DNA of 64,000 nucleotides from Siphonodentalium dalli (Eukaryota; Mollusca; Scaphopoda; Gadilida; Siphonodentaliidae): NCBI GenBank assembly GCA_032622095.1, contig CP136062.1, positions 2,602,001-2,666,000 of the forward strand. Direction: 5' to 3'. The position numbers and the translations under genes were made by a program. Shown piece by piece: positions 7,101-48,705 of the stretch. Numbering within the stretch: the first letter of the stretch is position 1; every line of letters begins with the position of its first letter. The notes under the pieces are model-generated. The model saw nothing but the letters and a program-made list of their open reading frames with translations, ran no database searches and was not told the origin of the DNA.

Positions 7101-10100
7101 AACACAGAAATGTCAATAAACCATACTATCGACATACCAATCAATTCCGTGCGAATCCCTTATTATACTTCCATATTTTAATATGGAAGTATATTGTTAT
7201 TCAATTTATTATTTTTCTCCTCTATTATTATTATTCTAAGCAATTTTTCAACTCTTATATCTCCGGAAGTACAAGAGATAGGGAGCTGAAATTTCGTATG
7301 CATATAGACCTATACTATTTCTAACTAATAAGAGTATATAGGATGTTGCCCACGATTGGTTTACAGAGTTATCTCCCTTTTTGTGAAAAAATGGGGTTGC
7401 TGTATCTCGAAAAGTATGAGCAGCAGAGACTCAAAATTTGGACCATATGTAGAACTCAGGATTCCCTATTGAATCCATACATTATAATTTATGTCCGCGC
7501 TTTTTCTACAGAGTTGTCGCCCATGATTCGCAAAATTCGATTTATTTCATATCATGTAACCGCCTATAACATGCACGGTATCCATATTTGAGAGATTTTA
7601 TGTAGTTACCCGTTATCAACTTGCTACGAAAACAAGTTTTAAACAGGGACGGACTTATATTTTTGGGTTTTGGGTGGGGGCAAAATTTTCGCAATTTTTT
7701 TTTTCGATGATTTCAACTATTTTTACTGTCGTGTATCTATAGGGTGTACTAATGATCCTCCTGAAAGAATTTTGGAAATCGGTTCAGAATTGTCCAAGTT
7801 ACAGACCATCGCAAATTGTATTCATACATCGATTGAGGAGAAAGTGCTTGTGGACAAAACTCCTCCTAGACGACGCACGCGAACTGGATTTGGTCTATGT
7901 GAGCGTGTTATCCATAGAAAGAAGACGAAATGGTGCAATTTTGACGAAGATCCAAAAACATTGGTCCATATTAGGGAGGGGGCAAAAATTGTCATATTTT
8001 TTTGGTCTCCGATTTGAACCAAAATTGTTGTGAAGTATCTATAAGATGTACCGAGTGAAATTATGAGTGAATTTTGTGAATCGGTTGAAAAATGTAGAAA
8101 TTGTGGCCCCTTCATTTTTTTCAAGTTTACAGAAGATGCACTATGAATTCAAATTCCTTCAACCAATCGTCAATTGTTTAGTGTCATTCGGTGGGGAATT
8201 TATAATACTTTTAAACGATTACCGACTTGCCTTATTATGTCGATGGAAGCCAGATATAATCGAAATGTATGTACTGAACAGCATTAATATAGGTCTATAT
8301 AGTAGAATATCGCCACAATATCTTACTAGAACCCTACTAAATATTAAAGGGGCATCAAATGCGAACACAATGACGCAAAAATTAGCTCGATATCTCGAAG
8401 ATTAGCCGAGATATGGCGACTTTTCTACACGCATCACCTAATTCCGAGGCAAGGGTGGGGGTCACACCAGAACGTTCCAACTGAACACAGAAATGTCAAT
8501 AAACCATACTATCGACATACCAATCAATTCCGTGCGAATCCCTTATTATACTTCCATATTTTAATATGGAAGTATATTGTTATTCAATTTATTATTTTTC
8601 TCCTCTATTATTATTATTCTAAGCAATTTTTCAACTCTTATATCTCCGGAAGTACAAGAGATAGGGAGCTGAAATTTCGTATGCATATAGACCTATACTA
8701 TTTCTAACTAATAAGAGTATATAGGATGTTGCCCACGATTGGTTTACAGAGTTATCTCCCTTTTTGTGAAAAAATGGGGTTGCTGTATCTCGAAAAGTAT
8801 GAGCAGCAGAGACTCAAAATTTGGACCATATGTAGAACTCAGGATTCCCTATTGAATCCATACATTATAATTTATGTCCGCGCTTTTTCTACAGAGTTGT
8901 CGCCCATGATTCGCAAAATTCGATTTATTTCATATCATGTAACCGCCTATAACATGCACGGTATCCATATTTGAGAGATTTTATGTAGTTACCCGTTATC
9001 AACTTGCTACGAAAACAAGTTTTAAACAGGGACGGACTTATATTTTTGGGTTTTGGGTGGGGGCAAAATTTTCGCAATTTTTTTTTTCGATGATTTCAAC
9101 TATTTTTACTGTCGTGTATCTATAGGGTGTACTAATGATCCTCCTGAAAGAATTTTGGAAATCGGTTCAGAATTGTCCAAGTTACAGACCATCGCAAATT
9201 GTATTCATACATCGATTGAGGAGAAAGTGCTTGTGGACAAAACTCCTCCTAGACGACGCACGCGAACTGGATTTGGTCTATGTGAGCGTGTTATCCATAG
9301 AAAGAAGACGAAATGGTGCAATTTTGACGAAGATCCAAAAACATTGGTCCATATTAGGGAGGGGGCAAAAATTGTCATATTTTTTTGGTCTCCGATTTGA
9401 ACCAAAATTGTTGTGAAGTATCTATAAGATGTACCGAGTGAAATTATGAGTGAATTTTGTGAATCGGTTGAAAAATGTAGAAATTGTGGCCCCTTCATTT
9501 TTTTCAAGTTTACAGAAGATGCACTATGAATTCAAATTCCTTCAACCAATCGTCAATTGTTTAGTGTCATTCGGTGGGGAATTTATAATACTTTTAAACG
9601 ATTACCGACTTGCCTTATTATGTCGATGGAAGCCAGATATAATCGAAATGTATGTACTGAACAGCATTAATATAGGTCTATATAGTAGAATATCGCCACA
9701 ATATCTTACTAGAACCCTACTAAATATTAAAGGGGCATCAAATGCGAACACAATGACGCAAAAATTAGCTCGATATCTCGAAGATTAGCCGAGATATGGC
9801 GACTTTTCTACACGCATCACCTAATTCCGAGGCAAGGGTGGGGGTCACACCAGAACGTTCCAACTGAACACAGAAATGTCAATAAACCATACTATCGACA
9901 TACCAATCAATTCCGTGCGAATCCCTTATTATACTTCCATATTTTAATATGGAAGTATATTGTTATTCAATTTATTATTTTTCTCCTCTATTATTATTAT
10001 TCTAAGCAATTTTTCAACTCTTATATCTCCGGAAGTACAAGAGATAGGGAGCTGAAATTTCGTATGCATATAGACCTATACTATTTCTAACTAATAAGAG

Positions 10101-11030
10101 TATATAGGATGTTGCCCACGATTGGTTTACAGAGTTATCTCCCTTTTTGTGAAAAAATGGGGTTGCTGTATCTCGAAAAGTATGAGCAGCAGAGACTCAA
10201 AATTTGGACCATATGTAGAACTCAGGATTCCCTATTGAATCCATACATTATAATTTATGTCCGCGCTTTTTCTACAGAGTTGTCGCCCATGATTCGCAAA
10301 ATTCGATTTATTTCATATCATGTAACCGCCTATAACATGCACGGTATCCATATTTGAGAGATTTTATGTAGTTACCCGTTATCAACTTGCTACGAAAACA
10401 AGTTTTAAACAGGGACGGACTTATATTTTTGGGTTTTGGGTGGGGGCAAAATTTTCGCAATTTTTTTTTTCGATGATTTCAACTATTTTTACTGTCGTGT
10501 ATCTATAGGGTGTACTAATGATCCTCCTGAAAGAATTTTGGAAATCGGTTCAGAATTGTCCAAGTTACAGACCATCGCAAATTGTATTCATACATCGATT
10601 GAGGAGAAAGTGCTTGTGGACAAAACTCCTCCTAGACGACGCACGCGAACTGGATTTGGTCTATGTGAGCGTGTTATCCATAGAAAGAAGACGAAATGGT
10701 GCAATTTTGACGAAGATCCAAAAACATTGGTCCATATTAGGGAGGGGGCAAAAATTGTCATATTTTTTTGGTCTCCGATTTGAACCAAAATTGTTGTGAA
10801 GTATCTATAAGATGTACCGAGTGAAATTATGAGTGAATTTTGTGAATCGGTTGAAAAATGTAGAAATTGTGGCCCCTTCATTTTTTTCAAGTTTACAGAA
10901 GATGCACTATGAATTCAAATTCCTTCAACCAATCGTCAATTGTTTAGTGTCATTCGGTGGGGAATTTATAATACTTTTAAACGATTACCGACTTGCCTTA
11001 TTATGTCGATGGAAGCCAGATATAATCGAA

Positions 11031-12412
11031 ATGTATGTACTGAACAGCATTAATATAGGTCTATATAGTAGAATATCGCCACAATATCTTACTAGAACCC
11101 TACTAAATATTAAAGGGGCATCAAATGCGAACACAATGACGCAAAAATTAGCTCGATATCTCGAAGATTAGCCGAGATATGGCGACTTTTCTACACGCAT
11201 CACCTAATTCCGAGGCAAGGGTGGGGGTCACACCAGAACGTTCCAACTGAACACAGAAATGTCAATAAACCATACTATCGACATACCAATCAATTCCGTG
11301 CGAATCCCTTATTATACTTCCATATTTTAATATGGAAGTATATTGTTATTCAATTTATTATTTTTCTCCTCTATTATTATTATTCTAAGCAATTTTTCAA
11401 CTCTTATATCTCCGGAAGTACAAGAGATAGGGAGCTGAAATTTCGTATGCATATAGACCTATACTATTTCTAACTAATAAGAGTATATAGGATGTTGCCC
11501 ACGATTGGTTTACAGAGTTATCTCCCTTTTTGTGAAAAAATGGGGTTGCTGTATCTCGAAAAGTATGAGCAGCAGAGACTCAAAATTTGGACCATATGTA
11601 GAACTCAGGATTCCCTATTGAATCCATACATTATAATTTATGTCCGCGCTTTTTCTACAGAGTTGTCGCCCATGATTCGCAAAATTCGATTTATTTCATA
11701 TCATGTAACCGCCTATAACATGCACGGTATCCATATTTGAGAGATTTTATGTAGTTACCCGTTATCAACTTGCTACGAAAACAAGTTTTAAACAGGGACG
11801 GACTTATATTTTTGGGTTTTGGGTGGGGGCAAAATTTTCGCAATTTTTTTTTCGATGATTTCAACTATTTTTACTGTCGTGTATCTATATGGTGTACTAA
11901 TGATCCTCCTGAAAGAATTTTGGAAATCGGTTCAGAATTGTCCAAGTTACAGACCATCGCAAATTGTATTCATACATCGATTGAGGAGAAAGTGCTTGTG
12001 GACAAAACTCCTCCTAGACGACGCACGCGAACTGGATTTGGTCTATGTGAGCGTGTTATCCATAGAAAGAAGACGAAATGGTGCAATTTTGACGAAGATC
12101 CAAAAACATTGGTCCATATTAGGGAGGGGGCAAAAATTGTCATATTTTTTTGGTCTCCGATTTGAACCAAAATTGTTGTGAAGTATCTATAAGATGTACC
12201 GAGTGAAATTATGAGTGAATTTTGTGAATCGGTTGAAAAATGTAGAAATTGTGGCCCCTTCATTTTTTTCAAGTTTACAGAAGATGCACTATGAATTCAA
12301 ATTCCTTCAACCAATCGTCAATTGTTTAGTGTCATTCGGTGGGGAATTTATAATACTTTTAAACGATTACCGACTTGCCTTATTATGTCGATGGAAGCCA
12401 GATATAATCGAA
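11031..12412 (+). repeat. Variant 1383-family monomer (1382 bp, shortened T run)
   Basis: The T run at about 11846-11853 is one base shorter than in the other copies, and a few tens of bases later 'ctatagggtg' reads 'ctatatggtg'. The next unit (12413-13795) has its own private change, 'ttgctcacg' for 'ttgcccacg' at about 12876. Sparse single-base markers like these would allow the array to be phased. Confidence 0.9.
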
Positions 12413-14077
12413 ATGTATGTACTGAACAGCATTAATATAGGTCTATATAGTAGAATATCGCCACAATATCTTACTAGAACCCTACTAAATATTAAAGGGG
12501 CATCAAATGCGAACACAATGACGCAAAAATTAGCTCGATATCTCGAAGATTAGCCGAGATATGGCGACTTTTCTACACGCATCACCTAATTCCGAGGCAA
12601 GGGTGGGGGTCACACCAGAACGTTCCAACTGAACACAGAAATGTCAATAAACCATACTATCGACATACCAATCAATTCCGTGCGAATCCCTTATTATACT
12701 TCCATATTTTAATATGGAAGTATATTGTTATTCAATTTATTATTTTTCTCCTCTATTATTATTATTCTAAGCAATTTTTCAACTCTTATATCTCCGGAAG
12801 TACAAGAGATAGGGAGCTGAAATTTCGTATGCATATAGACCTATACTATTTCTAACTAATAAGAGTATATAGGATGTTGCTCACGATTGGTTTACAGAGT
12901 TATCTCCCTTTTTGTGAAAAAATGGGGTTGCTGTATCTCGAAAAGTATGAGCAGCAGAGACTCAAAATTTGGACCATATGTAGAACTCAGGATTCCCTAT
13001 TGAATCCATACATTATAATTTATGTCCGCGCTTTTTCTACAGAGTTGTCGCCCATGATTCGCAAAATTCGATTTATTTCATATCATGTAACCGCCTATAA
13101 CATGCACGGTATCCATATTTGAGAGATTTTATGTAGTTACCCGTTATCAACTTGCTACGAAAACAAGTTTTAAACAGGGACGGACTTATATTTTTGGGTT
13201 TTGGGTGGGGGCAAAATTTTCGCAATTTTTTTTTTCGATGATTTCAACTATTTTTACTGTCGTGTATCTATAGGGTGTACTAATGATCCTCCTGAAAGAA
13301 TTTTGGAAATCGGTTCAGAATTGTCCAAGTTACAGACCATCGCAAATTGTATTCATACATCGATTGAGGAGAAAGTGCTTGTGGACAAAACTCCTCCTAG
13401 ACGACGCACGCGAACTGGATTTGGTCTATGTGAGCGTGTTATCCATAGAAAGAAGACGAAATGGTGCAATTTTGACGAAGATCCAAAAACATTGGTCCAT
13501 ATTAGGGAGGGGGCAAAAATTGTCATATTTTTTTGGTCTCCGATTTGAACCAAAATTGTTGTGAAGTATCTATAAGATGTACCGAGTGAAATTATGAGTG
13601 AATTTTGTGAATCGGTTGAAAAATGTAGAAATTGTGGCCCCTTCATTTTTTTCAAGTTTACAGAAGATGCACTATGAATTCAAATTCCTTCAACCAATCG
13701 TCAATTGTTTAGTGTCATTCGGTGGGGAATTTATAATACTTTTAAACGATTACCGACTTGCCTTATTATGTCGATGGAAGCCAGATATAATCGAAATGTA
13801 TGTACTGAACAGCATTAATATAGGTCTATATAGTAGAATATCGCCACAATATCTTACTAGAACCCTACTAAATATTAAAGGGGCATCAAATGCGAACACA
13901 ATGACGCAAAAATTAGCTCGATATCTCGAAGATTAGCCGAGATATGGCGACTTTTCTACACGCATCACCTAATTCCGAGGCAAGGGTGGGGGTCACACCA
14001 GAACGTTCCAACTGAACACAGAAATGTCAATAAACCATACTATCGACATACCAATCAATTCCGTGCGAATCCCTTAT

Positions 14078-14206
14078 TATACTTCCATATTTTAATATGG
14101 AAGTATATTGTTATTATACTTCCATGTTTTACATGGAAGTATATTGTTTTTGTGATTTTTATTTTTCTCTATTATTATACTTCCATGGTGTAACCAAGGA
14201 AGTATA
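14078..14206. repeat. Cluster of three palindromic joints bounding two micro-units
   Basis: Three inverted repeats follow each other: 14078-14107 (spacer of the 1383 type), 14115-14143 (TATACTTCCATGT, loop TTT, and its complement) and 14176-14206 (TATACTTCCATGGT, short loop, near-complement). The intervals between them are only about 7 and 32 bp, so they behave as miniature monomers that keep the common ends (GGAAGTATATTG at the start, TATACTTCC at the end) and little else. This is the boundary between the 1383-bp and 1729-bp satellites. Confidence 0.9.
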
Positions 14207-14379
14207 TTGTTTTTCTACTGCGGCCGTTTTCTGTTTAATTGGAAATACTCAGAAACTAATGGGAGGAGGACCGCGAAATCTCTAGCGAATGTAGGCATCT
14301 AAGGTCTACTAAAAATAATGCTATCCGGATGTTGGTCCAATATATTTTGACAGAGTTATGGCCCTTTTTCGATTATTTT

Positions 14380-14414
<35 letters not shown>

Positions 14415-15919
14415 CTGGACACTTTTGCAACCCTTATTACTCGAAAAGTAACAGGAGTAGCACACTAAAACTTGGTACGTATCTTGGGATCAAAGAGTTG
14501 TATGCCATCGTCGCATAACGAATATTGTCCGCGTTTTCCCCGAGGAGTTATCTCCCTTTATTTGAAAAAATGTCATTTTATTATCTCGGAAATTATAAGA
14601 AGCAGAGCATCGAAAATTAGACCGTATGCACATCTCGATATGCACTACTGCCCACGGGCATAAAAACTTGGGTCCGCCCTTTCCCTGAAGAGTTACCGCC
14701 CATAGTTGGCAAACCTCTATTTTATTGTACTCTGTTGTCCTCCCGTATCATTCCAGATAACTGTATTTGGTTTTTGTAGTCGTGTTGACCGTTGTCAGCT
14801 TAGTCCGAGGAAGAAAATTTGACAGGGTTGGACATATATTTTTACACTGGGGTGGGGGCAATATTTTCGCAATTTTTTTTTATTATTGACATTCATCTAT
14901 TTAAGTATGTAGATTCCCTGAACGAAAACAAACCCATACCGGAAAGGATTTTTGTAATCCGAGAAGAAATGCAAGAGTTACGGGCCCTCAAAGTTTGCAA
15001 TTTGGTCCCATGTGCTTGTGACCCTATCTCCTCCGAAGATGTCGAACTTTGGATGTCGTCTGATATCCCAGTGCGTGCGGTCTGAAGAGAGCACGCGATG
15101 GGCCAAATTTTGCCAGTGTCGGTTCAGTGTTGTGGGTCAGGGGAGGGGTGGTCCGGGGTACCAATTTTGTATTCTTCTCCGAATCGGATGAAACTTGGAA
15201 TATAACATCCATACCGCCAACCGATCTAGAAACTGGACGAATTTCGAAAATCCATTGAAAAATGTCAGAGTTGTGGGCCTTCAAACAATGCAAATTTGGC
15301 CCCATATGCTTGTGATCACATCTCCTCCGAAGATGTCAAACTTTGGATGTCAACTGATACGCCAATGCGTGCGGTCTGAAGAGAGCACGCGATGAGCCAA
15401 ATTTTGCCAGTGTCGGTTCAGTGTTGTGGGTCAGGGGAGGGGTGGTCCGGGGTACCAAAATTTATTTCGTCTCCGAATCATATGAAACTTGATATATAAC
15501 ATATACCATACACGTTGATCATAAAACTGAAAACAGATTGTAAATCCGTTAAAAAATGGCGGAGATTTGGGCCCTCAAACTTTGAATGTGGGCCCGTATT
15601 CTTTCCAATAAACAAAATGTTATTCGTCTCTGAATCAGACAAAATTTATAACAAATAATCAATGTAAGTAGCTGATCACAATACTCAAAACAATTTTTAA
15701 ATCCATTGGAAAATAACGGAGTTACGGGCTCTCAAAATTCGCATTTTGGGCCGGGTTTGACTATTTCCCAATCCCGTCACCCAATTTCGAGGCAGGGGTG
15801 GGGTCACTCCCAAACACTTGAGATCAACCCACACATGTTAAGGGAAAGATATAATCATCCTAATTCATATTTTCCGTCCCTTAACTGCGATTTATTGAGC
15901 TCATGATTTGCCCTATTAT
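14176..15919 (+). repeat. Diverged edge monomer of the 1729-bp satellite family (1744 bp)
   Basis: This unit begins and ends at palindromic joints and is collinear with the 1729-bp monomer: T-rich start, 'gttatctcccttt' segment, two copies of the 'ctcctccgaagatgtcgaa' block (about 15027 and 15325), and a 3' part ending in 'cgaggcaggggtgggg' and 'attattatacttcc'. It differs from the arrayed copies by many scattered substitutions and small indels and has a much longer ATT run. A divergent monomer at an array edge is typical of satellites that are homogenised mainly in the interior. Confidence 0.9.
14381..14414 (+). repeat. (ATT)n microsatellite
   Basis: An ATT run of about 11 units lies inside the edge monomer. 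In the 1729-bp monomers the same place has only a short 'attattattatt' tract. The truncated monomer next door is fused to the terminal 'attattatacttcc' at this tract. Confidence 0.95.
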
Positions 15920-16142
15920 TATACTTCCATGGTGTAACCAAGGAAGTATATTGTTTTTCTACTGCGGCCGTTTTCTGTTTAATTGGAAATACTCAGAAAC
16001 TAATGGGAGGAGGACCGCGAAATCTCTAGCGAATGTAGGCATCTAAGGTCTACTAAAAATAATGCTATCCGGATGTTGGTCCAATATATTTTGACAGAGT
16101 TATGGCCCTTTTTCGATTATTTTTCATTATTATTATTATTAT
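15920..16142 (+). repeat. Truncated 1729-family monomer (223 bp)
   Basis: It starts with the palindrome and repeats, essentially identically, the first ~200 bp of the diverged edge monomer (14199-14395), including 'ctactgcggccg'. At the ATT run it jumps straight to the terminal 'attattatacttcc' and the next palindrome. The internal ~1.5 kb is missing. The fused ends share the ATT repeat, so slippage or microhomology-mediated deletion is the simplest origin. Confidence 0.9.
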
Positions 16143-17871
16143 TATACTTCCATGGTGTAACCAAGGAAGTATATTGTTTTTCTACTGAGGTCGTTTTCCG
16201 TTTATTTCGAAATACTCAGAAACTGATTGCAGTAGGAACGCGAAATCTCTAGCGAATATAGGCATCTGAGGTCTACTAAAGATAATGATATCCGGATTTC
16301 GGCCCAATGTTTCAAGACAGAGTTATAGCCCTTATTCGATTATTTTTCATTATTATTATTATACTACAGTATTTTTCAACGCCCAAATCTCTGAATGTAT
16401 TAGTACTAGAAAACTCAAGTTTGGTAAGTGTGTTGGGGTAAATGAGTTCTATGCCTTTGGCTCATAACGGATATTGTCCGCATTTACCCCGTGGAGTTAT
16501 CTCCCTTTATATGAAAAAATGTCATTTTATTATCTCGGAAATTATAAGGAGCAGAGCATCGAAAATTGGACCGTATGTACACCTCGGTATGCCCTTCTGC
16601 CCACCGGCATCAAAACTTGTGTCCGCGCTTTCCCTGAAGAGTTACCGCCCATAAACAGGGGAACCTCTATTTTATTGTACTCTGTTGTTCTCCCGTATCA
16701 TTCCAGATAACTGCATTTGGTTTTCACAGCTGTGATGACCGTTCTCAGTTTAGTCCGAAAAAGAAATTTTAACAGAGTCGGACATATATTTTTACACTGA
16801 TGTGGGGGCAAAATTTTCTCAAAAATATTTTTTTGATCGATATTCATCTATTTAAGTATATGCATTCCCTGAACGAAAACAAACCCAAACCAAGAAGGAT
16901 TTTTGAAATCCGATAAGAATTGCAAGAGTTACAGGCCCTCAAATTTTGCAGTTTGGGACATATGTGCTTGTGACCCTATCTCCTCCGAAGATGTCGAAGT
17001 TTGGATGTCAACTGATACGCCAACGTGTGCGGATGAAATAGTGCACGCGGTGGGCCAAATTTTGCCAGTGTCTATTCATTATTGTGGATATGGGGAGGGG
17101 TGGTCCGTGGTACCAATTTTTAATTCTTATCGGAATAAGATGAAACTTGGAATTTAACATCTACAACACCACCCGATCTAGAAACTGAAATTTTTTCGAA
17201 ATTCCATTGAAAACTGACAAAGTTAGGGGCCCTCAAATTTTGCAATTTTGGGCCCATGTGCTTGATAACACATCTCCTCCGAAGATGTCGAACATTGAAT
17301 GTCATCTGATACGCCAAAGTGTGTAGGCCGAAGAGAGCACGCGGTGTGCCAAATTTTGCCAGTGTCGGTTCAGTGTTGTGGGTCAGGGGAGGGGTGGTCC
17401 GAGGTACCAAAATTTATTTCGTCTCCGAATTATATGAAACTTGGAATATAACATCTACCATACACGCTAATAACAAATCTGAAAACAGATCGTAAATCCG
17501 CTAAAAACTGGCGGAGATTTTGGAACTCAAAGTTTGAATATGGGCCCATATTATTTCCAATAACCAAAATGTTCTTCTTTTCCGAATCAGATGAAATTTA
17601 TAATATGCAATCTCAGTAAGTAGCATATAACAAAACTGAAAACAATTTTTAAATCCATTGGATAATCACGGAGTTATGGTCCTTCAAAAATTGCATTTTG
17701 GGCCTGGTGTGACAATTTCCCAATCCCGTCACCCAATTTCGAGGCAGGAGTGGGGTCAATTATAAACACTTGAGATCAACACACAAATGTTAAGGACAGT
17801 ACACAATCATCTTACTTCATATTTTCCATCCCTAAACTGCGCATTGTTCAGTTCATGATTCGCCCTATTAT

Positions 17872-17902
17872 TATACTTCCATGGTGTAACCAAGGAAGTA
17901 TA
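17872..17902. other. Palindromic joint of the 1729-bp monomer (representative copy)
   Basis: The arms TATACTTCCATGGT and ACCAAGGAAGTATA pair at all but one position, with a short GTA loop. The same joint is at 15920, 16143, 19601, 21330, 23059, 56928, 58657, 60386, 62115 and 63844. The outer nine bases match the joint of the 1383-bp satellite exactly. Confidence 0.9.
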
Positions 17903-20900
17903 TTGTTTTTCTACTGAGGTCGTTTTCCGTTTATTTCGAAATACTCAGAAACTGATTGCAGTAGGAACGCGAAATCTCTAGCGAATATAGGCATCTGAGG
18001 TCTACTAAAGATAATGATATCCGGATTTCGGCCCAATGTTTCAAGACAGAGTTATAGCCCTTATTCGATTATTTTTCATTATTATTATTATACTACAGTA
18101 TTTTTCAACGCCCAAATCTCTGAATGTATTAGTACTAGAAAACTCAAGTTTGGTAAGTGTGTTGGGGTAAATGAGTTCTATGCCTTTGGCTCATAACGGA
18201 TATTGTCCGCATTTACCCCGTGGAGTTATCTCCCTTTATATGAAAAAATGTCATTTTATTATCTCGGAAATTATAAGGAGCAGAGCATCGAAAATTGGAC
18301 CGTATGTACACCTCGGTATGCCCTTCTGCCCACCGGCATCAAAACTTGTGTCCGCGCTTTCCCTGAAGAGTTACCGCCCATAAACAGGGGAACCTCTATT
18401 TTATTGTACTCTGTTGTTCTCCCGTATCATTCCAGATAACTGCATTTGGTTTTCACAGCTGTGATGACCGTTCTCAGTTTAGTCCGAAAAAGAAATTTTA
18501 ACAGAGTCGGACATATATTTTTACACTGATGTGGGGGCAAAATTTTCTCAAAAATATTTTTTTGATCGATATTTATCTATTTAAGTATATGCATTCCCTG
18601 AACGAAAACAAACCCAAACCAAGAAGGATTTTTGAAATCCGATAAGAATTGCAAGAGTTACAGGCCCTCAAATTTTGCAGTTTGGGACATATGTGCTTGT
18701 GACCCTATCTCCTCCGAAGATGTCGAAGTTTGGATGTCAACTGATACGCCAACGTGTGCGGATGAAATAGTGCACGCGGTGGGCCAAATTTTGCCAGTGT
18801 CTATTCATTATTGTGGATATGGGGAGGGGTGGTCCGTGGTACCAATTTTTAATTCTTATCGGAATAAGATGAAACTTGGAATTTAACATCTACAACACCA
18901 CCCGATCTAGAAACTGAAATTTTTTCGAAATTCCATTGAAAACTGACAAAGTTAGGGGCCCTCAAATTTTGCAATTTTGGGCCCATGTGCTTGATAACAC
19001 ATCTCCTCCGAAGATGTCGAACATTGAATGTCATCTGATACGCCAAAGTGTGTAGGCCGAAGAGAGCACGCGGTGTGCCAAATTTTGCCAGTGTCGGTTC
19101 AGTGTTGTGGGTCAGGGGAGGGGTGGTCCGAGGTACCAAAATTTATTTCGTCTCCGAATTATATGAAACTTGGAATATAACATCTACCATACACGCTAAT
19201 AACAAATCTGAAAACAGATCGTAAATCCGCTAAAAACTGGCGGAGATTTTGGAACTCAAAGTTTGAATATGGGCCCATATTATTTCCAATAACCAAAATG
19301 TTCTTCTTTTCCGAATCAGATGAAATTTATAATATGCAATCTCAGTAAGTAGCATATAACAAAACTGAAAACAATTTTTAAATCCATTGGATAATCACGG
19401 AGTTATGGTCCTTCAAAAATTGCATTTTGGGCCTGGTGTGACAATTTCCCAATCCCGTCACCCAATTTCGAGGCAGGAGTGGGGTCAATTATAAACACTT
19501 GAGATCAACACACAAATGTTAAGGACAGTACACAATCATCTTACTTCATATTTTCCATCCCTAAACTGCGCATTGTTCAGTTCATGATTCGCCCTATTAT
19601 TATACTTCCATGGTGTAACCAAGGAAGTATATTGTTTTTCTACTGAGGTCGTTTTCCGTTTATTTCGAAATACTCAGAAACTGATTGCAGTAGGAACGCG
19701 AAATCTCTAGCGAATATAGGCATCTGAGGTCTACTAAAGATAATGATATCCGGATTTCGGCCCAATGTTTCAAGACAGAGTTATAGCCCTTATTCGATTA
19801 TTTTTCATTATTATTATTATACTACAGTATTTTTCAACGCCCAAATCTCTGAATGTATTAGTACTAGAAAACTCAAGTTTGGTAAGTGTGTTGGGGTAAA
19901 TGAGTTCTATGCCTTTGGCTCATAACGGATATTGTCCGCATTTACCCCGTGGAGTTATCTCCCTTTATATGAAAAAATGTCATTTTATTATCTCGGAAAT
20001 TATAAGGAGCAGAGCATCGAAAATTGGACCGTATGTACACCTCGGTATGCCCTTCTGCCCACCGGCATCAAAACTTGTGTCCGCGCTTTCCCTGAAGAGT
20101 TACCGCCCATAAACAGGGGAACCTCTATTTTATTGTACTCTGTTGTTCTCCCGTATCATTCCAGATAACTGCATTTGGTTTTCACAGCCGTGATGACCGT
20201 TCTCAGTTTAGTCCGAAAAAGAAATTTTAACAGAGTCGGACATATATTTTTACACTGATGTGGGGGCAAAATTTTCTCAAAAATATTTTTTTGATCGATA
20301 TTCATCTATTTAAGTATATGCATTCCCTGAACGAAAACAAACCCAAACCAAGAAGGATTTTTGAAATCCGATAAGAATTGCAAGAGTTACAGGCCCTCAA
20401 ATTTTGCAGTTTGGGACATATGTGCTTGTGACCCTATCTCCTCCGAAGATGTCGAAGTTTGGATGTCAACTGATACGCCAACGTGTGCGGATGAAATAGT
20501 GCACGCGGTGGGCCAAATTTTGCCAGTGTCTATTCATTATTGTGGATATGGGGAGGGGTGGTCCGTGGTACCAATTTTTAATTCTTATCGGAATAAGATG
20601 AAACTTGGAATTTAACATCTACAACACCACCAGATCTAGAAACTGAAATTTTTTCGAAATTCCATTGAAAACTGACAAAGTTAGGGGCCCTCAAATTTTG
20701 CAATTTTGGGCCCATGTGCTTGATAACACATCTCCTCCGAAGATGTCGAACATTGAATGTCATCTGATACGCCAAAGTGTGTAGGCCGAAGAGAGCACGC
20801 GGTGTGCCAAATTTTGCCAGTGTCGGTTCAGTGTTGTGGGTCAGGGGAGGGGTGGTCCGAGGTACCAAAATTTATTTCGTCTCCGAATTATATGAAACTT

Positions 20901-23079
20901 GGAATATAACATCTACCATACACGCTAATAACAAATCTGAAAACAGATCGTAAATCCGTTAAAAACTGGCGGAGATTTTGGAACTCAAAGTTTGAATATG
21001 GGCCCATATTATTTCCAATAACCAAAATGTTCTTCTTTTCCGAATCAGATGAAATTTATAATATGCAATCTCAGTAAGTAGCATATAACAAAACTGAAAA
21101 CAATTTTTAAATCCATTGGATAATCACGGAGTTATGGTCCTTCAAAAATTGCATTTTGGGCCTGGTGTGACAATTTCCCAATCCCGTCACCCAATTTCGA
21201 GGCAGGAGTGGGGTCAATTATAAACACTTGAGATCAACACACAAATGTTAAGGACAGTACACAATCATCTTACTTCATATTTTCCATCCCTAAACTGCGC
21301 ATTGTTCAGTTCATGATTCGCCCTATTATTATACTTCCATGGTGTAACCAAGGAAGTATATTGTTTTTCTACTGAGGTCGTTTTCCGTTTATTTCGAAAT
21401 ACTCAGAAACTGATTGCAGTAGGAACGCGAAATCTCTAGCGAATATAGGCATCTGAGGTCTACTAAAGATAATGATATCCGGATTTCGGCCCAATGTTTC
21501 AAGACAGAGTTATAGCCCTTATTCGATTATTTTTCATTATTATTATTATACTACAGTATTTTTCAACGCCCAAATCTCTGAATGTATTAGTACTAGAAAA
21601 CTCAAGTTTGGTAAGTGTGTTGGGGTAAATGAGTTCTATGCCTTTGGCTCATAACGGATATTGTCCGCATTTACCCCGTGGAGTTATCTCCCTTTATATG
21701 AAAAAATGTCATTTTATTATCTCGGAAATTATAAGGAGCAGAGCATCGAAAATTGGACCGTATGTACACCTCGGTATGCCCTTCTGCCCACCGGCATCAA
21801 AACTTGTGTCCGCGCTTTCCCTGAAGAGTTACCGCCCATAAACAGGGGAACCTCTATTTTATTGTACTCTGTTGTTCTCCCGTATCATTCCAGATAACTG
21901 CATTTGGTTTTCACAGCCGTGATGACCGTTCTCAGTTTAGTCCGAAAAAGAAATTTTAACAGAGTCGGACATATATTTTTACACTGATGTGGGGGCAAAA
22001 TTTTCTCAAAAATATTTTTTTGATCGATATTCATCTATTTAAGTATATGCATTCCCTGAACGAAAACAAACCCAAACCAAGAAGGATTTTTGAAATCCGA
22101 TAAGAATTGCAAGAGTTACAGGCCCTCAAATTTTGCAGTTTGGGACATATGTGCTTGTGACCCTATCTCCTCCGAAGATGTCGAAGTTTGGATGTCAACT
22201 GATACGCCAACGTGTGCGGATGAAATAGTGCACGCGGTGGGCCAAATTTTGCCAGTGTCTATTCATTATTGTGGATATGGGGAGGGGTGGTCCGTGGTAC
22301 CAATTTTTAATTCTTATCGGAATAAGATGAAACTTGGAATTTAACATCTACAACACCACCAGATCTAGAAACTGAAATTTTTTCGAAATTCCATTGAAAA
22401 CTGACAAAGTTAGGGGCCCTCAAATTTTGCAATTTTGGGCCCATGTGCTTGATAACACATCTCCTCCGAAGATGTCGAACATTGAATGTCATCTGATACG
22501 CCAAAGTGTGTAGGCCGAAGAGAGCACGCGGTGTGCCAAATTTTGCCAGTGTCGGTTCAGTGTTGTGGGTCAGGGGAGGGGTGGTCCGAGGTACCAAAAT
22601 TTATTTCGTCTCCGAATTATATGAAACTTGGAATATAACATCTACCATACACGCTAATAACAAATCTGAAAACAGATCGTAAATCCGTTAAAAACTGGCG
22701 GAGATTTTGGAACTCAAAGTTTGAATATGGGCCCATATTATTTCCAATAACCAAAATGTTCTTCTTTTCCGAATCAGATGAAATTTATAATATGCAATCT
22801 CAGTAAGTAGCATATAACAAAACTGAAAACAATTTTTAAATCCATTGGATAATCACGGAGTTATGGTCCTTCAAAAATTGCATTTTGGGCCTGGTGTGAC
22901 AATTTCCCAATCCCGTCACCCAATTTCGAGGCAGGAGTGGGGTCAATTATAAACACTTGAGATCAACACACAAATGTTAAGGACAGTACACAATCATCTT
23001 ACTTCATATTTTCCATCCCTAAACTGCGCATTGTTCAGTTCATGATTCGCCCTATTATTATACTTCCATGGTGTAACCA

Positions 23080-23090
23080 AGGAAGTATAT
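23080..23090 (+). other. Left 11-bp direct repeat at the edge of the 32-kb insert
   Basis: AGGAAGTATAT, the right arm of the palindromic joint, is the last satellite sequence before the array is interrupted. The same 11 bases begin the resumed array at 55220-55230. The preceding and following bases differ. It may be a target-site duplication or a microhomology at a rearrangement breakpoint. Confidence 0.7.
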
Positions 23091-23379: not shown

Positions 23380-26115
23380 CGCCGTTTTTCCATCCGTTCT
23401 GGCTCGTTCCGGCCCGTTCCGGGTTCGATATCCAGGCAACGAGACACTTTATTCGGAAAAATGCAACGTTATCGACGGAAGGGGTTCGTTATGAGTATCA
23501 ACAATGAATTCCAACGCAAAATTGGCAGGGATGCGGCCGTGACAGGGGTTTGAAGAAAACGGAGAATAAGTAGGCGACGTTATGTCGTCGCCGATTCCAA
23601 GCTGTGTGGCAAAAAAATTATTTTCCGGCAAACCAAAAACATCAAATATGATATTTTTTTTCTTTGAAACGGTTAAGCTAATTGACACGCATGGTAGCAC
23701 AGACACGATATTTGTCATGGGATCCCAAGAGAGCTCAAAATGGGATTTATGTCTCGTAAAAAGGCAATTTACATGTTATAACTCAATAATAAAAAACACT
23801 CCTAGTCGCCATTTTAATATGTTTAGCACCATATACTTCATATCCGTCGGTTCCATTTGTCACAGGAGTATTTTCGGTAGGTATGACGAACGGGGCGAAT
23901 CACCTGACCTGCGTAGGGGAGGGGTTAAAAGATAGGGAGAAAAGTAGACGAAATTCCATTCTAGGTCGTTCCAGACCGTTCCAGGCTCGGTGTCCATACA
24001 AATTGAGGCGCGTTTACCTGAATGGTGCTATGCTATCAACATAAGGGATGCATTAGAAATATTCGAGCTGAAATCAAGCACAAAATTGACAGGGATGCGG
24101 CCGTGAGAGGGGGTTGAAGAAAACGGAGAATAAGTAGACTACGATATATCGTCGCCTGGCAAGAAATTGGTTTTCCGGCAAACCAAAAACATCCAAAATG
24201 AATTTTTTTTCTTTAAATCGGTTAAGCTAATTGACACGCATGGTAGCACAGACACGATATTTGTCATGGGATCCCAAGAGAGCTCACAACGGGATTTATG
24301 TCTCGTAAAAAGGCAATTTACATGTTATAACTCAATAATTAAAAACTCCCCTAATCGACATTTTAATATGTTTAGCACCTTATACTTCATTTCCGTCGGT
24401 TCCATTTGTCACAGGAGTATTTTCGGTAGGTATGACGAACGGGGCGAATCATCTGACCTGCGTAGGGGAGGGGTTGAAAGATAGGGAGAAAAGTAGACGA
24501 AATTCCATTCTAGGTCGTTCCAGGCTCGGTATCCATACAAATTGAGGCGCGTTTACCTGACTGGTGCTATGCTATCAATATAAGGGATGCACTAGAAATA
24601 TTCGAGCTGAAATCAAGCACAAAATTGACAGGGATGCGGCCGTGAGAGGGGGTTGAAGAAAACGGAGAATAAGTAGACGACGATATGTCGTCGCCTGGCA
24701 AGAAATTGATTTTCCGGTAAACCAAAAACACAAAAATGATTTTTTTTTTTTTTGAAACGGTTAAGCTAATTGACACGCATGGTAGCACAGACACGATATT
24801 TGTCATGGGATCCCAAGAGAGCTCAAAATGGGATTTATGTCTCGTAAAAAGGCAATTTACATGTTATAACTCAATAATAAAAAACACTCCTAGTCGCCAT
24901 TCTAATATGTTTAGCACCATATACTTCATTTCCGTCGATTCCATTTGTCACAGGAGTATTTTCGGTAGGTATGACGAACGGGGCGAATCATCTGACCTGC
25001 GTAGGGGAGGGGTTAAAAGATAGGGAGAAAAGTAGACGAAATTCCATTCTAGGTCGTTCCAGACCGTTCCAGGCTCGGTGTCCATACAAATTGATGCGCG
25101 TTTACCTGAATGGTGCTATGCTATCAACATAAGGGATGCATTAGAAATATTCGAGCTGAAATCAAGAACAAAATTGACAGGGATGCGGCCGTGAGAGGGG
25201 GTTGAAGAAAACGGAGAATAAGTAGACGACGATATATCGTCGCCTGGCAAGAAATTGATTTTCCGGCAAACCAAAAACATCCAAAATGATATTTTTTTCT
25301 TTAAATCGGTTAAGCTAATTGACACGCATGGTAGCACAGACAGGATATTTGCCATGGGATCCCAAGAGAGCTCACAACGGGATTTATGTCTCGTAAAAAG
25401 GCAATTTACATGTTATAACTCAATAATAAAAAACACTCCTAGTCGCCATTCTAATATGTTTAGCACCATATACTTCATTTCCGTCGATTCCATTTGTCAC
25501 AGGAGTATTTTCGGTAGGTATGACGAACGGGGCGAATCATCTGACCTGCGTAGGGGAGGGGTTAAAAGATAGGGAGAAAAGTAGACGAAATTCCATTCTA
25601 GGTCGTTCCAGACCGTTCCAGGCTCGGTGTCCATACAAATTGAGGCGCGTTTACCTGAATGGTGCTATGCTATCAATATAAGGGATGCATTAGAAATATT
25701 CGAGCTGAAATCAAGCACAAAATTGACAGGGATGCGGCCGTGAGAGGGGGTTGAAGAAAACGGAGAATAAGTAGACGACGATATATCGTCGCGTGGCAAG
25801 AAATTGATTTTCCGGCAAACCAAAAACATCCAAAATGATTTTTTTTTCTTTAAATCGGTAAGCTAATTGACACGCATGATAACACAGACAGGATATTTGT
25901 CATGGGATCCCAAGAGAGCTCACAACGGGATTTATGTCTCGTACAAAGGCAATTTACATGTTATAACTCAATAATAAAAAACACCCCTAGTCGCCATTTT
26001 AATATGTTTAGCACCTTATACTTCATTTCCGTCGGTTCCATTTGTCACAGGAGTATTTTCGGTAGGTATGACGAACGGGTCGAATCATCTGACCTGCGTA
26101 GGGGAGGGGTTGAAA

Positions 26116-27761
26116 GATAGGGAGAAAAGTAGACGAAATTCCATTCTAGGTCGTTCCAGACCGTTCCAGGCTCGGTATCCATACAAATTGAGGCGCGTTT
26201 ACCTGACTGGTGCTATGCTATAAATATAAGGGATGCACTAAAAATAATCGAGCTGAAATCAAGCACAAAGTCGACAGGGATGCGGCCGTGAGAGGGGGTT
26301 GAAGAAAACGGAGAATAAGTAGACGACGATATATCGTCGCCTGGCAAGAAATTGATTTTCCGGCAAACCAAAAACATCCAAAATGATTTTTTTTTCTTTA
26401 AATCGGTTAAGCTAATTGACACGCATGGTAGCACAGACAGGATATTTGCCATGGGATCACAAGAGAGCTCACAACGGGATTTATGTCTCGTAAAAAGGCA
26501 ATTTACATGTTATTACTCAATAATAAAAAACACTCCTAGTCGCCATTCTAATATGTTTAGCACCATATACTTCATTTCCGTCGATTCCATTTGTCACAGG
26601 AGTATTTTCGGTAGGTATGACGAACGGGGCGAATCATCTGACCTGCGTAGGGGAGGGGTTGAAAGATAGGGAGAAAAGTAGACGAAATTCCATTCTAGGT
26701 CGTTCCAGACCGTTCCAGGCTCGGTATCCATACAAATTGAGGCGCGTTTACCTGACTGGTGCTATGCTATCAATATAAGGGATGCACTAGAAATATTCGA
26801 GCTGAAATCAAGCACAAAATTGACAGGGATGCGGCCGTGAGAGGGGGTTGAAGAAAACGGAGAATAAGTAGACTACGATATATCGTCGCCTGGCAAGAAA
26901 TTGATTTTCCGGCAAACCAAAAACATCCAAAATGAATTTTTTTCTTTAAATCGGTTAAGCTAATTGACACGCATGGTAGCACAGACAGGATATTTGTCAT
27001 GGGATCCCAAGAGAGCTCACAACGGGATTTATGTCTCGTAAAAATGCAATTTACATGTTATAACTCAATAATTAAAAACTCCCCTAGTCGCCATTTTAAT
27101 ATGTTTAGCACCATATACTTCATTTCCGTCGATTCCATTTGTCACAGGAGTATTTTCGGTAGGTATGACGAACGGGGCGAATCATCTGACCTGCGTAGGG
27201 GAGGGGTTGAAAGATAGGGAGAAAAGTAGACGAAATTCCATTCTAGGTCGTTCCAGACCGTTCCAGGCTCGGTATCCATACAAATTGAGGCGCGTTTACC
27301 TGACTGGTGCTATGCTATCAATATAAGGGATGCACTAGAAATATTCGAGCTGAAATCAAGCACAAAATTGACAGGGATGCGGCCGTGAGAGGGGGTTGAA
27401 GAAAACGGAGAATAAGTAGACGACGATATGTCGTCGCGTGGCAAGAAATTGATTTTCCGGTAAACCAAAAACACAAAAATGATTTTTTTTGTTTTTGAAA
27501 CGGTTAAGCTAATTGACACGCATGGTAGCACAGACACGATATTTGTCATGGGATCCCAAGAGAGCTCAAAATGGGATTTATGTCTCGTAAAAAGGCAATT
27601 TACATGTTATAACTCAATAATAAAAAACACTCCTAGTCGCCATTCTAATATGTTTAGCACCATATACTTCATTTCCGTCGATTCCATTTGTCACAGGAGT
27701 ATTTTCGGTAGGTATGACGAACGGGGCGAATCATCTGACCTGCGTAGGGGAGAGGTTAAAA
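26116..27761 (+). repeat. Higher-order repeat unit of three 549-bp monomers, copy 1
   Basis: Monomers at 26116, 26665 and 27213 form the types A, B and C. They are matched, private variants included, by 27762-29408. For example, type A alone has 'catgttattactcaa' and 'tttgccatgggatcac', and type C has 'gattttttttgtttttgaaacgg'. The spacing between equivalent bases is 1646-1647 bp. Confidence 0.85.
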
Positions 27762-29408
27762 GATAGGGAGAAAAGTAGACGAAATTCCATTCTAGGTCGT
27801 TCCAGACCGTTCCAGGCTCGGTGTCCATACAAATTGAGGCGCGTTTACCTGAATGGTGCTATGCTATCAATATAAGGGATGCATTAGAAATATTCGAGCT
27901 GAAATCAAGCACAAAATTGACAGGGATGCGGCCGTGAGAGGGGGTTGAAGAAAACGGAGAATAAGTAGACGACGATATATCGTCGCATGGCAAGAAATTG
28001 ATTTTCCGGCAAACCAAAAACATCCAAAATGATTTTTTTTTCTTTAAATCGGTTAAGCTAATTGACACGCATGGTAGCACAGACAGGATATTTGCCATGG
28101 GATCACAAGAGAGCTCACAACGGGATTTATGTCTCGTAAAAAGGCAATTTACATGTTATTACTCAATAATAAAAAACACTCCTAGTCGCCATTCTAATAT
28201 GTTTAGCACCATATACTTCATTTCCGTCGATTCCATTTGTCACAGGAGTATTTTCGGTAGGTATGACGAACGGGGCGAATCATCTGACCTGCGTAGGGGA
28301 GGGGTTGAAAGATAGGGAGAAAAGTAGACGAAATTCCATTCTAGGTCGTTCCAGACCGTTCCAGGATCGGTATCCATACAAATTGAGGCGCGTTTACCTG
28401 ACTGGTGCTATGCTATCAATATAAGGGATGCACTAGAAATATTCGAGCTGAAATCAAGCACAAAATTGACAGGGATGCGGCCGTGAGAGGGGGTTGAAGA
28501 AAACGGAGAATAAGTAGACTACGATATATCGTCGCCTGGCAAGAAATTGATTTTCCGGCAAACCAAAAACATCCAAAATGAATTTTTTTTCTTTAAATCG
28601 GTTAAGCTAATTGACACGCATGGTAGCACAGACAGGATATTTGTCATGGGATCCCAAGAGAGCTCACAACGGGATTTATGTCTCGTAAAAATGCAATTTA
28701 GATGTTATAACTCAATAATTAAAAACTCCCCTAGTCGCCATTTTAATATGTTTAGCACCTTATACTTCATTTCCGTCGATTCCATTTGTCACAGGAGTAT
28801 TTTCGGTAGGTATGACGAACGGGGCGAATCATCTGACCTGCGTAGGGGAGGGGTTGAAAGATAGGGAGAAAAGTAGACGAAATTCCATTCTAGGTCGTTC
28901 CAGACCGTTCCAGGCTCGGTATCCATACAAATTGAGGCGCGTTTACCTGACTGGTGCTATGCTATCAATATAAGGGATGCACTAGAAATATTCGAGCTGA
29001 AATCAAGCACAAAATTGACAGGGATGCGGCCGTGAGAGGGGGTTGAAGAAAACGGAGAATAAGTAGACGACGATATGTCGTCGCGTGGCAAGAAATTGAT
29101 TTTCCGGTAAACCAAAAACACAAAAATGATTTTTTTTGTTTTTGAAACGGTTAAGCTAATTGACACGCATGGTAGCACAGACACGATATTTGTCATGGGA
29201 TCCCAAGAGAGCTCAAAATGGGATTTATGTCTCGTAAAAAGGCAATTTACATGTTATAACTCAATAATAAAAAACACTCCTAGTCGCCATTCTAATATGT
29301 TTAGCACCATATACTTCATTTCCGTCGATTCCATTTGTCACAGGAGTATTTTCGGTAGGTATGACGAACGGGGCGAATCATCTGACCTGCGTAGGGGAGA
29401 GGTTAAAA
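27762..29408 (+). repeat. Higher-order repeat unit of three 549-bp monomers, copy 2
   Basis: This repeats the A-B-C order of 26116-27761 with the same type-specific variants, showing that the last duplication step copied three monomers at once. Flanking monomers at 25568 and 29409 share another private type ('ctcgtacaaaggcaattt'). That implies a still larger duplicated segment or a second unequal exchange. Confidence 0.85.
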
Positions 29409-30494
29409 GATAGGGAGAAAAGTAGACGAAATTCCATTCTAGGTCGTTCCAGACCGTTCCAGGCTCGGTGTCCATACAAATTGAGGCGCGTTTACCTGAA
29501 TGGTGCTATGCTATCAATATAAGGGATGCATTAGAAATATTCGAGCTGAAATCAAGCACAAAATTGACAGGGATGCGGCCGTGAGAGGGGGTTGAAGAAA
29601 ACGGAGAATAAGTAGACGACGATATATCGTCGCCTGGCAAGAAATTGATTTTCCGGCAAACCAAAAACATCCAAAATGATTTTTTTTTCTTTAAATCGGT
29701 TAAGTTAATTGACACGCATGGTAGCACAGACAGGATATTTGTCATGGGATCCCAAGAGAGCTCACAACGGGATTTATGTCTCGTACAAAGGCAATTTACA
29801 TGTTATAACTCAATAATAAAAAACACCCCTAGTCGCCATTTTAATATGTTTAGCACCTTATACTTCATTTCCGTCGGTTCCATTTGTCACAGGAGTATTT
29901 TCGGTAGGTATGACGAACGGGGCGAATCATCTGACCTGCGTAGGGGAGGGGTTGAAAGATAGAGAGAAAAGTAGACGAAATTCCATTCTAGGTCGTTCCA
30001 GACCGTTCCAGGCTCGGTATCCATACAAATTGAGGCGCGTTTACCTGACTGGTGCTATGCTATCAATATAAGGGATGCACTAGAAATATTCGAGCTGAAA
30101 TCAAGCACAAAATCGACAGGGATGCGGCCGTGAGAGGGGGTTGAAGAAAACGGAGAATAAGTAGACTACGATATATCGTCGCCTGGCAAGAAATTGATTT
30201 TCCGGCAAACCAAAAACATCCAAAATAATTTTTTTTCTTTAAATCGGTTAAGCTAATTGACACGCATGGTAGCACAGACAGGATAATTGTCATGGGATCC
30301 CAAGAGAGCTCACAGCGGGATTTATGTCACGTAAAAAGGCAACTTACCTGTTATAACTCAATAATAAAAAACACCCCTAGTCGCCATTTTAATATGTTTA
30401 GCACCATATTCTTCGGTTCCATTTGTCACAGGAGTATTTTCGGTAGGTATGACGAACGAGGCGAATCATCTGATATGCGTTGGGGAGGGGTTGA

Positions 30495-31934
30495 TACCCC
30501 CGGGGTGATGGGTGGTATCGGGGTGTTCATATGGGGGTATTTTGGGAAAGCCGAAATCCTTACCGTTCTCAAAAATGGTCCATACTCCATGTTCACCCCC
30601 TTGGGTGGAACCCCCTCGGGTTGATGCGTCGGGGGTCGGCGTATTTCTAGGGGTATTTGGTGAGGGCCACCCACACATGCCATGAAATCGGTCTTAATTC
30701 TTACCGTGGCACCCCTGGTGTGATATGTGGGGTCGGGGTGTTTCTATGTGGTATTTGGGGTGGACCCCCCCCCTGTGAAGTCGAATCGGTAGAAAACCTT
30801 ACTCTTTTCGAAAATGGCCCATACCCTATTTTCCCATCTCGGGGTGGCACCCCAGCGGATGTGTGGCGTCGGGGTGTTACTAGTGATATTTCGGGTGGGC
30901 CACCCAAATCGGTCGAAATTCTAACTATTCTCGAAAATGGTCCATACCCCATGTTCACCCACGGGTGTCACCCTCTGGTGTTGTTGTATTTGGGTCGTGG
31001 TGTCGGAGGTGATGGGTGTGGGTCGGAGTGTTCTAAAGGGTATTTGGGGCGGGCCACCCAACCATTTCGGTCGAAATCATTACCGTTCTCGAAAATGGTC
31101 CATACCCAATTTTCACCCCCTCGGGTGATAGGGGGGATCGGGATGTTTCTTTGCGGTATTTGGGACGGGGCCCCACCCATGCCGTCGAATCAGTCGAAAT
31201 CCTTACATTTCTCTAAAATGGTCCAATCCAAATGTTCACATCCTCGGGATGGCACTCCCGGATGTGATGGGTGTGGATCGGAGTGTTTCTAAAGGGTATT
31301 TTGGGCGGCCACCAAACCATTCCGTCAAATCGGTCGAAATCATCACCGTTCTCGAAAATGGTCCATACCCCATTTTCACACCCTCGGGGACGCACCACCG
31401 TGGTGATGGTGTGGTCGGGGTGTTTCTAGGGGGTATTTGGGGCGGGTCACGCACCCATGCCGTCAAATCGGTCGAAATCTTTACCGTTCTCGAAATGGTC
31501 CATTCCCCATGCTTACCCCCTCAGATGGCACCCTCGGTGGTGATGGGCGAGGGTCGGTGTGTTTCTAGGGGCATTTGGGGTGGGCCACCCAACCGTGTCG
31601 TCAAATCGGTCGTAATCGTTACCGTTCGTGAAAATGGTCCATAACCCATTTTCACCCCTCGGTGGCACCCACCGGAGCTGGTGGTTGGGTCGAGGTGTTT
31701 CTAGGGGATATTTGGGGCGGGCCACCCATCCATGTCGACAAATCGGTCGAAATCCTTGCCTTTCTCGAAAATGGTCCATACCCCATGTTCACCCACTAGG
31801 GTTGACACCCTGGAGAGGATTGGTGTGGGTCGGAGTGTTTCTAAAGGGTATTTTGGGCGGCCACCCAACCATTTCATCAAATCGGTCGATATCATTACCG
31901 TTCTCGAAAATGGTCCATACCCCATTTTCACGAT
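30495..31934 (+). repeat. ~140-bp G-rich minisatellite, block 1
   Basis: About ten diverged copies of a unit whose landmarks in order are GGGTGATGGGTGGGG, TCGGGGTGTTTCTA, GTATTTGGGGCGGGCCACCC, GTCAAATCGGTCGAAATC, ACCGTTCTCGAAAATGG, CCATACCCCATTTTCACC and CGGGGTGGCACCCC. Copies differ by many substitutions and small indels, so the block is older or less homogenised than the large satellites. Almost all frames lack stops, giving spurious open frames such as 211 aa at 30657-31292. Confidence 0.92.
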
Positions 31935-32172
31935 GGGTCAATTACACAAAAGTTGTTCTCAGATCATTGAAATTAACGATCTGTATCAGTACCATAAACA
32001 TGTTAACAATGAACGCTCTTTATAGCTTTGTGTTGATCTCGACTGTTCTAAATTATATACCTTGAATATGACGTTCGTGTATGGCAGATACAGTCCGTAT
32101 AACAGTATTTTCGTGTATGTACACCAATTGTGATCACAGGAAGCTAGTCAGAATATGTGACTAATATCGGCG
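31935..32172 (+). repeat. Family D dispersed repeat, fragment 1
   Basis: AT-rich sequence interrupting the minisatellite. Its landmarks ('aacgctctttat', 'gttgatctcgactgttctaa', 'gtatggcagatacagtcc', 'gatcacaggaagctagtcag') recur in the same order at 34665-34893, 45823-46030 and, more diverged, 46486-46620. This is an interspersed repeat of unknown class; no ends or coding capacity are seen in this copy. Confidence 0.8.

Positions 32173-48644: not shown

Positions 48645-48705
<61 letters not shown>

Follow-up and report, generated by a model that had tools for sequence, protein, structure and literature searches.

Stacked Helentron-type 5′ ends as the probable basis of long tandem repeats in the scaphopod Siphonodentalium dalli

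Introduction

In the available portion of PMC4067079, elements of the Helentron/DINE-1/HINE group are described as carrying 13-bp subterminal inverted repeats (subTIRs), a second inverted repeat with its 5′ side inside the 5′ subTIR, a microsatellite and a 3′ stem-loop, and as inserting into TT; their RepHel protein has a C-terminal endonuclease, and an OTU protease has been reported. The accessible parts of PMC12628747 and PMC8268682 credit Xiong, Dooner and Du (2016) with arrays of 3′-truncated Helitrons from 27 plant genomes, several to several hundred repeats long and many with multiple 5′ ends and a single 3′ end, and with a model in which the terminator is lost from a circle. For the oyster, the excerpted text of PMC7492417 gives Cg_HINE a subTIR, an inverted repeat, a microsatellite and a 3′ palindrome, and places satellite-like repeats on Helentrons. 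Here we describe a 64,000-bp stretch of the Siphonodentalium dalli genome (GCA_032622095.1, contig CP136062.1, positions 2,602,001 to 2,666,000, forward strand; hereafter the window), in which satellites with 1383-bp and 1729-bp monomers are punctuated by a palindrome of the form TTATACTTCC–spacer–GGAAGTATA.

This palindrome is very probably the 5′ terminal module of a Helentron-type family, with the switches between monomer types being nested insertions and the arrays being 5′ heads closed by one full copy. The identity of the palindromes as Helentron-type 5′ termini is well supported by the terminal sequences. On this reading, long repeats in this genome are piles of nested Helentron front ends; the route from transposon to satellite is a known one, of which they give a new and very clear case.

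Results

Occurrence of the palindrome

The window contains 51 copies of GGAAGTATA where 0.60 are expected (0 of 100 shuffles as high) and 24 exact complete palindromes. These bear out the original prediction of one palindrome per monomer, both in the 1383-type array (283 to 14078) and in the 1729-bp arrays (16143 to 23059 and 56928 to 63844), and its three spacers and its joints at 14078, 14115, 14176, 15920 and 16143 were found as given. The genome searched (2.23 Gb, nine contigs) yields 10,456 matches with spacers of 0–30 bp allowed, and the spacer takes 13 forms, of 11–13 bp, among the 69 distinct exact palindromes examined. The hairpin is retained across spacer changes; the three window spacers give −9.6, −9.8 and −11.2 kcal/mol (z −5.5 to −8.3), and no shuffle folds as well.

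Arrays of the palindrome family are also present at C1:1637-55000, the first lying 1.6 kb from the contig end, and are possibly subtelomeric. At L043 (C4:149240000-149243500, about position 405) a joint without any palindrome is seen, apparently between TAT repeats, as would be expected of a hairpin-linked deletion.

Termini of the element

Eight of the fetched copies (L007, L009, L012, L014, L015 and L018-L020) have upstream DNA unlike array units, and in all eight the palindrome sits at the left edge with both arms within the element, at A/TTATACTTCC, where the slash marks the boundary (L007 has one altered arm letter). Both arms also lie at the 5′ end of the further non-array copies L113, L127, L131 and L132. 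It is thus well supported, on terminal sequence, that the two arms together form the 5′ terminus of the downstream unit, that is, a 5′ subterminal repeat with a nested inverted repeat; the latter, GGAAGTATA, is a Helentron/HINE feature. A monomer running from GGAAGTATATTG to ATTATACTTCC is ruled out by the non-array copies: the original prediction had the module in the wrong phase, and elements finish in CTAG. Its suggestion that the joint holds the paired ends of a mobile unit was right in that the joint is an end of such a unit and wrong in that both arms belong to one 5′ terminus.

The opposite end, in L001, L007, L008, L012 and L014, consists of CCATGGAAGTATA, a hairpin and then CTAG/TT. 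In the commonest type, TATACTTCCATGG is the 13-bp reverse complement of CCATGGAAGTATA (13/13), and elements of the ATATTTTAATAT type carry ATATGGAAGTAT at the 3′ end. Four 3′ hairpin sequences share one layout (GATTCCATGGAATC; AAATTTCTG..CAGAAATTT; AAAATTCTG..CAGAATTTT; AAACTTCC..GGAAGTTT). The first form has 1,224 exact copies in the genome (589 forward, 635 reverse), and TT follows in 15 of the 15 sampled, all from C1. No matching 3′ terminus (CCATGGAAGTATA, hairpin, CTAG/TT) was found within the 64-kb window. Overall, CTAG/TT is present at 32 of the 34 3′ ends examined, or 12 of 14 without the 20 chosen by a CTAG-containing pattern. The 3′ hairpins fold less strongly than the 5′ ones (z −2.4 to −3.8); three of the four sequences fold as hairpins, and the commonest pairs with the subterminal repeat to give a competing helix.

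The 69 distinct exact palindromes are preceded by AT (A/TTATAC) in 66 cases, mostly array joints that are not independent of one another, and directly by CTAG in 3. The latter read as full head-to-tail junctions of the form CTAG/TTATACTTCC (3/3 examined), at odds with the earlier idea that head-to-tail joining creates the palindrome. The target is TT, without target-site duplication: three empty sites are restored, and the edges are A/TT on the left (66/69) and CTAG/TT on the right (32/34). Insertion takes place at A/TT, in the cases examined often within TTA repeats near the family's own 5′ ends.

Nested insertions and their restored targets

The features of the window, in window coordinates, are as follows.

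283 to 14098, + strand: array of ten 1383-type monomers (1348–1384 bp), each headed by a 5′ terminus
14099 to 14113, + strand: first 15 bp of a 1383-type head, broken at TTGTTA/TT; intact window heads read TTGTTATTCAATTT
14114 to 14174, + strand: 5′ terminus and 40-bp head of a ATGTTTTACAT-type element, broken at CTATTA/TT by the large insertion
14175 to 14206, + strand: 5′ terminus of the large composite, TATACTTCCATGG with nested GGAAGTATA; A/TT junction, restored monomer
14175 to 64000, + strand: composite Helentron-like insertion of 51,740 bp, running past the window to 65914 and ending CTAG/TTATTATT
14198 to 15941, + strand: 1744-bp unit
15942 to 16141, + strand: 1744-type unit, truncated by the following 5′ terminus in its (TTA)n at about position 200; C1:1859 has this cut site too
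16142 to 16173, + strand: 5′ terminus of the 1729-type array
16165 to 23080, + strand: four 1729-bp monomers ahead of the core
23081 to 23090, + strand: right arm GGAAGTATAT, left copy of the core's 10-bp direct repeat
23091 to 55220, + strand: core, 32,130 bp (549-bp and ~138-bp repeats, other sequence)
55221 to 55230, + strand: GGAAGTATAT, right copy of the core's 10-bp direct repeat
55221 to 63865, + strand: five 1729-bp monomers past the core, with the same sequence as the ones ahead of it at 19623 and 21352
63866 to 64000, + strand: beginning of a 2,049-bp element, the last copy, with a 496-bp head equal to the monomer, its own 3′ part and CTAG at 65914

Taking the joint at 14176 as a left edge predicts that the broken ATGTTTTACAT monomer continues past a 3′ terminus, and it does so beyond the window, at window coordinate 65914. 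The insertion from 14175 spans 51,740 bp and closes at a CTAG terminus, and its flanks, when joined (40 bp left, 1340 bp right), reproduce the intact neighbour monomer at 1380/1380 with one TTA unit fewer. In a later monomer this site holds another insertion, of 6,854 bp, with joined flanks identical to the intact neighbour (1383/1383); the left flank is 43 bp, so that both left flanks are short. At C1:1859-6166, a 4,308-bp element lies within the TTA repeat of a 1744 unit, and its joined flanks match the window unit at 1739/1744. In these three insertions the type switch is, as read from the assembly, the left edge of an element inserted into an A/TT site of another element, and the other switches presumably have the same origin. 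Given such nested insertions with restored targets, the micro-units of 37, 61 and 223 bp would be stubs of interrupted elements, and for the 61-bp stub the right half was recovered.

The original prediction placed every type switch at the palindrome. This holds for entries into a new type but not for returns to the outer type: all seven returns examined, which lie outside the window (window coordinates 65914 and 74160, C1:6166, ~C1:18.9 kb, two on C2 and one on C8), fall at CTAG/TT.

Organization of the arrays

The three array insertions examined (C1:1859-6166, window 14175-65914 and window coordinates 67307-74160) have multiple 5′ ends and a single 3′ end, with 5′-headed monomers followed by one full copy that holds the sole 3′ end. 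The head of this last copy agrees with the monomer at 100% over 496 bp in the window insertion and over 638 bp in C1, at 99.8% over 629 columns in the second (6,854-bp) insertion and at 98.1% over 803 columns in C2; beyond its head, the last copy has its own 3′ part. Collinearity is seen between the window last copy and L012, which is a single element of the dispersed kind (86.2% over 2,074 columns). The nine 1729 monomers show 0–4 base differences, and seven of them, lying on either side of the 32-kb core, have an identical sequence. Monomer types that can be aligned over their full length diverge by 13–20%; the 1383 and 1729 types align only partially (72–74% over three stretches), and the joint is common to both.

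The 32-kb core

After the core, the array resumes at 55221 with half a palindrome, the left arm being absent. Exact core starts number 60 genome-wide and exact core ends 68. Every one of the 60 starts comes directly after a palindrome, in the right arm, the palindrome being exact in 52 and having one to three altered letters in 6, with 2 further starts tallied separately. The exact arm GGAAGTATAT follows 38 of the 68 ends; 13 of the other 30 were examined and have one altered arm letter each. In eleven of these 13 the arm has the sequence GGAAGTG, possibly as part of the core element. TATA follows the joint in 71 cases considered, of which 52 are exact core starts; 33 of the 71 could be matched to a left-boundary row at a distance of up to 80 kb, and 26 of these pairs span 26–40 kb. 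The pairing covered 71 of 87 joint-then-TATA rows and 90 of 96 rows of a second list (a C5 cluster of seven being represented by a single row), and the exact-arm tally of core boundaries covered 89 of the 96 listed rows.

Flanks of the core were compared at 11 loci (the window and 10 others), eight of them comparable. At four of the eight the same monomer is present on both sides (299–300 of 300), and the flanking monomer types differ by 18–21% between the window, C8 and a C3/C7 group. The comparison suggests that the core was inserted into existing arrays, leaving the 10-bp direct repeat. The other four lack the same-monomer pattern and do not show insertion into an existing array; at the C5 locus the flanks match at 283/299, and at three loci the left context is non-monomer. 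A single founder core may instead have been carried along by the Helentron. We raise, as an unlikely but possible arrangement, that a second element, mostly of 26–40 kb, has its fixed seat in the Helentron 5′ hairpin, integrates only into GGAAGTATAT with a 10-bp direct repeat and is spread by Helentron arrays; if true, the hairpin would serve as transposition start and integration site alike, and the parasite would have two tiers. Ten of the 19 open reading frames of at least 75 aa within 44900-55220, not strictly the longest ones, were tested, and none scored above a Pfam cut-off.

A tyrosine-recombinase crossover site was rejected for the palindrome joint, where insertions restore an intact target without a palindrome; for the core, such a site could still apply.

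The core also contains a 549-bp tandem repeat (12.7 copies, 23517-30494), which went undetected in a standard repeat run with a longest period of 500 bp. A diverged ~138-bp satellite occupies 31126-44137, and a 302/485-bp repeat (98% matches) is embedded in it at 35785-37417. L133 (C9:168490560-168491720) has two inverted core starts less than 1 kb apart with a shared upstream flank.

RepHel frames

A search of the genome with the Helitron Rep domain family gave at least 151 matches. In the lower-scoring class, two frames (at C2:5.30 Mb, with 2,590 codons, and at C8:4.88 Mb) contain OTU, DUF6570, Helitron_like_N, PIF1 and C-terminal Exo_endo_phos domains, the last only at its cut-off in the C8 frame. 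This set is, from the predicted domains, the Helentron architecture. The C2 frame (5300867-5308639) has on one side a 5′ palindrome at 5262475, ~38 kb upstream, whose adjoining head resembles the 1744 unit at 91.5%, and on the other a CTAG end at 5319909; no 5′ end of the RepHel element was found within 8 kb upstream. A paralogue at C8:82.47 Mb is 97% identical over 5,848 columns, and the C2:5.32 Mb and C8:82.46 Mb loci have the same 3′ terminus; C8:82512000-82521500 contains no palindrome with up to one change allowed per arm. The RepHel pieces (L021-L032) have no DNA similarity to the window and 20 loci at E 1e-8 with the low-complexity filter on.

Many open Helitron Rep frames of ~1,600 codons, of the higher-scoring class, are present beside the Helentron class. 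The genome may contain active rolling-circle elements.

Discussion

A Helentron-type origin of the arrays suggests how they could form. RepHel with its endonuclease would nick at a 5′ module, and copying would continue to the first 3′ hairpin; mobilization of an outer 5′ end together with an inner 3′ end would yield stacked 5′ heads, and recombination between identical heads could produce monomer circles or unequal exchanges and so a longer, homogenized array. Arrays would move as blocks of variable length, given that copying could begin at any of the 5′ modules.

How much of the pattern ordinary satellite evolution could produce has to be weighed against this. One ancient tandem joint, followed by unequal crossing-over and gene conversion, would leave the palindrome a passenger, with no transposase acting on the arrays today. 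Near-identity of monomers within an array, a joint shared by types that differ by 13–20% or align only partly, and the (near-)identical heads of monomers and last copy, as exchange would produce, all agree with such a history. It accounts neither for whole arrays inserted into an intact target with clean edges at A/TT and CTAG/TT nor for the 1,224 exact 3′ ends that are dispersed, and we consider it unlikely as the explanation of the locus. The chances are about even that arrays were built by rolling-circle amplification of monomer circles without a 3′ terminator and later inserted as a block, the process credited to Xiong et al. (2016) in the accessible parts of PMC12628747 and PMC8268682. 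Many 5′ ends with one 3′ end are what it would give, and identical heads would allow the recombination that removes the terminator; sequence by itself cannot separate it from unequal exchange. For array growth, the terminator-loss circle and unequal exchange between identical heads both fit.

The original prediction also offered a cruciform-prone break site, at which palindrome breaks join unlike monomers. Such a site is not required, despite the stable hairpins of the three window spacers and the one joint (L043) that lost its palindrome. Breakage would explain neither a whole palindrome with its two arms on the same side at A/TT in non-array DNA nor the matching of an entry with a CTAG exit; the insertions with restored targets strongly disfavour this explanation, which we regard as very improbable. 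A cut-and-paste transposon with terminal inverted repeats GGAAGTATA/TATACTTCC would account for the inverted arms, but the three insertions with restored targets show no target-site duplication past the TT overlap and the 3′ ends are a hairpin and CTAG with no bare inverted repeat, so that this origin is barely credible.

Several observations weigh against the family being a Helentron with stacked 5′ heads. Two of the 34 candidate 3′ ends (L009 and L011) are without CTAG/TT, and the commonest 3′ hairpin folds weakly (z −2.4, with 6 of 200 shuffles equal). In their distal parts, past ~500–800 bp, the monomers no longer align with the last copies, and a monomer is therefore not simply a 3′-truncated form of the adjacent full copy. 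For the switch at 16142 (223-bp stub), no 1744-type right half turned up as far as window coordinate 83000. A 1744 right end without interruption was sought as the founder site, and both matches (2/2) are mutated joints, so that no intact form was recovered of the site at which monomers were first "ended". The C2 RepHel stretch is unproven as one element because 5277501-5292499 was sampled as ten short probes, and no family end was found near the other RepHel loci (C8:4864500-4885500 and C1:169486500-169494500). The case as a whole is built on assembled sequence and not on reads, circles or transposition.

With 5′ heads as the repeated unit, the satellite landscape becomes a legible record of nested rolling-circle insertions with their intact targets adjoining, and because that unit is the 5′ module, the seeding of satellites by Helitron-type elements is directly testable. 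Caution is also advisable in annotation, since such "satellites" may be mobile and their 3′ end possibly tens of kilobases distant.

Comparison with known systems

Canonical Helitrons have a 5′ TC end, an A/T target and a 3′ CTRR end. The 5′ end here is TTATACTTCC, with no 5′ TC, and the 3′ CTAG is Helitron-like (CTRR). The original prediction knew of no described family with such an architecture, but the ends match the Helentron/DINE-1/HINE anatomy published in PMC4067079, as far as its available portion goes: both inverted repeats, the microsatellite, the 3′ stem-loop and the TT insertion are shared, and a RepHel with C-terminal endonuclease and OTU is present in the genome as a candidate autonomous partner. 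Unlike the elements described there, OTU here lies within RepHel's own open frame, the 1.2–1.75 kb monomers are headed by the 5′ terminus rather than being central repeats, and the composite reaches ~52 kb. In the open-access literature we found neither Helentron 5′-module arrays described together with their intact targets at base level nor an element lodged in a 5′ hairpin of this kind.

The end modules are also those of oyster Cg_HINE, in the excerpted text of PMC7492417, and in both cases satellite-like repeats are carried by Helentrons; the Cg_HINE repeats are central, between the end modules, whereas here the 5′ module itself is repeated. With the plant tandem Helitrons, as outlined in the accessible parts of PMC12628747 and PMC8268682, the arrays share the succession of several 5′ ends and then one 3′ end. 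They differ from them in that the termini are Helentron-type and in that the nested insertions are resolved to base level with intact targets.

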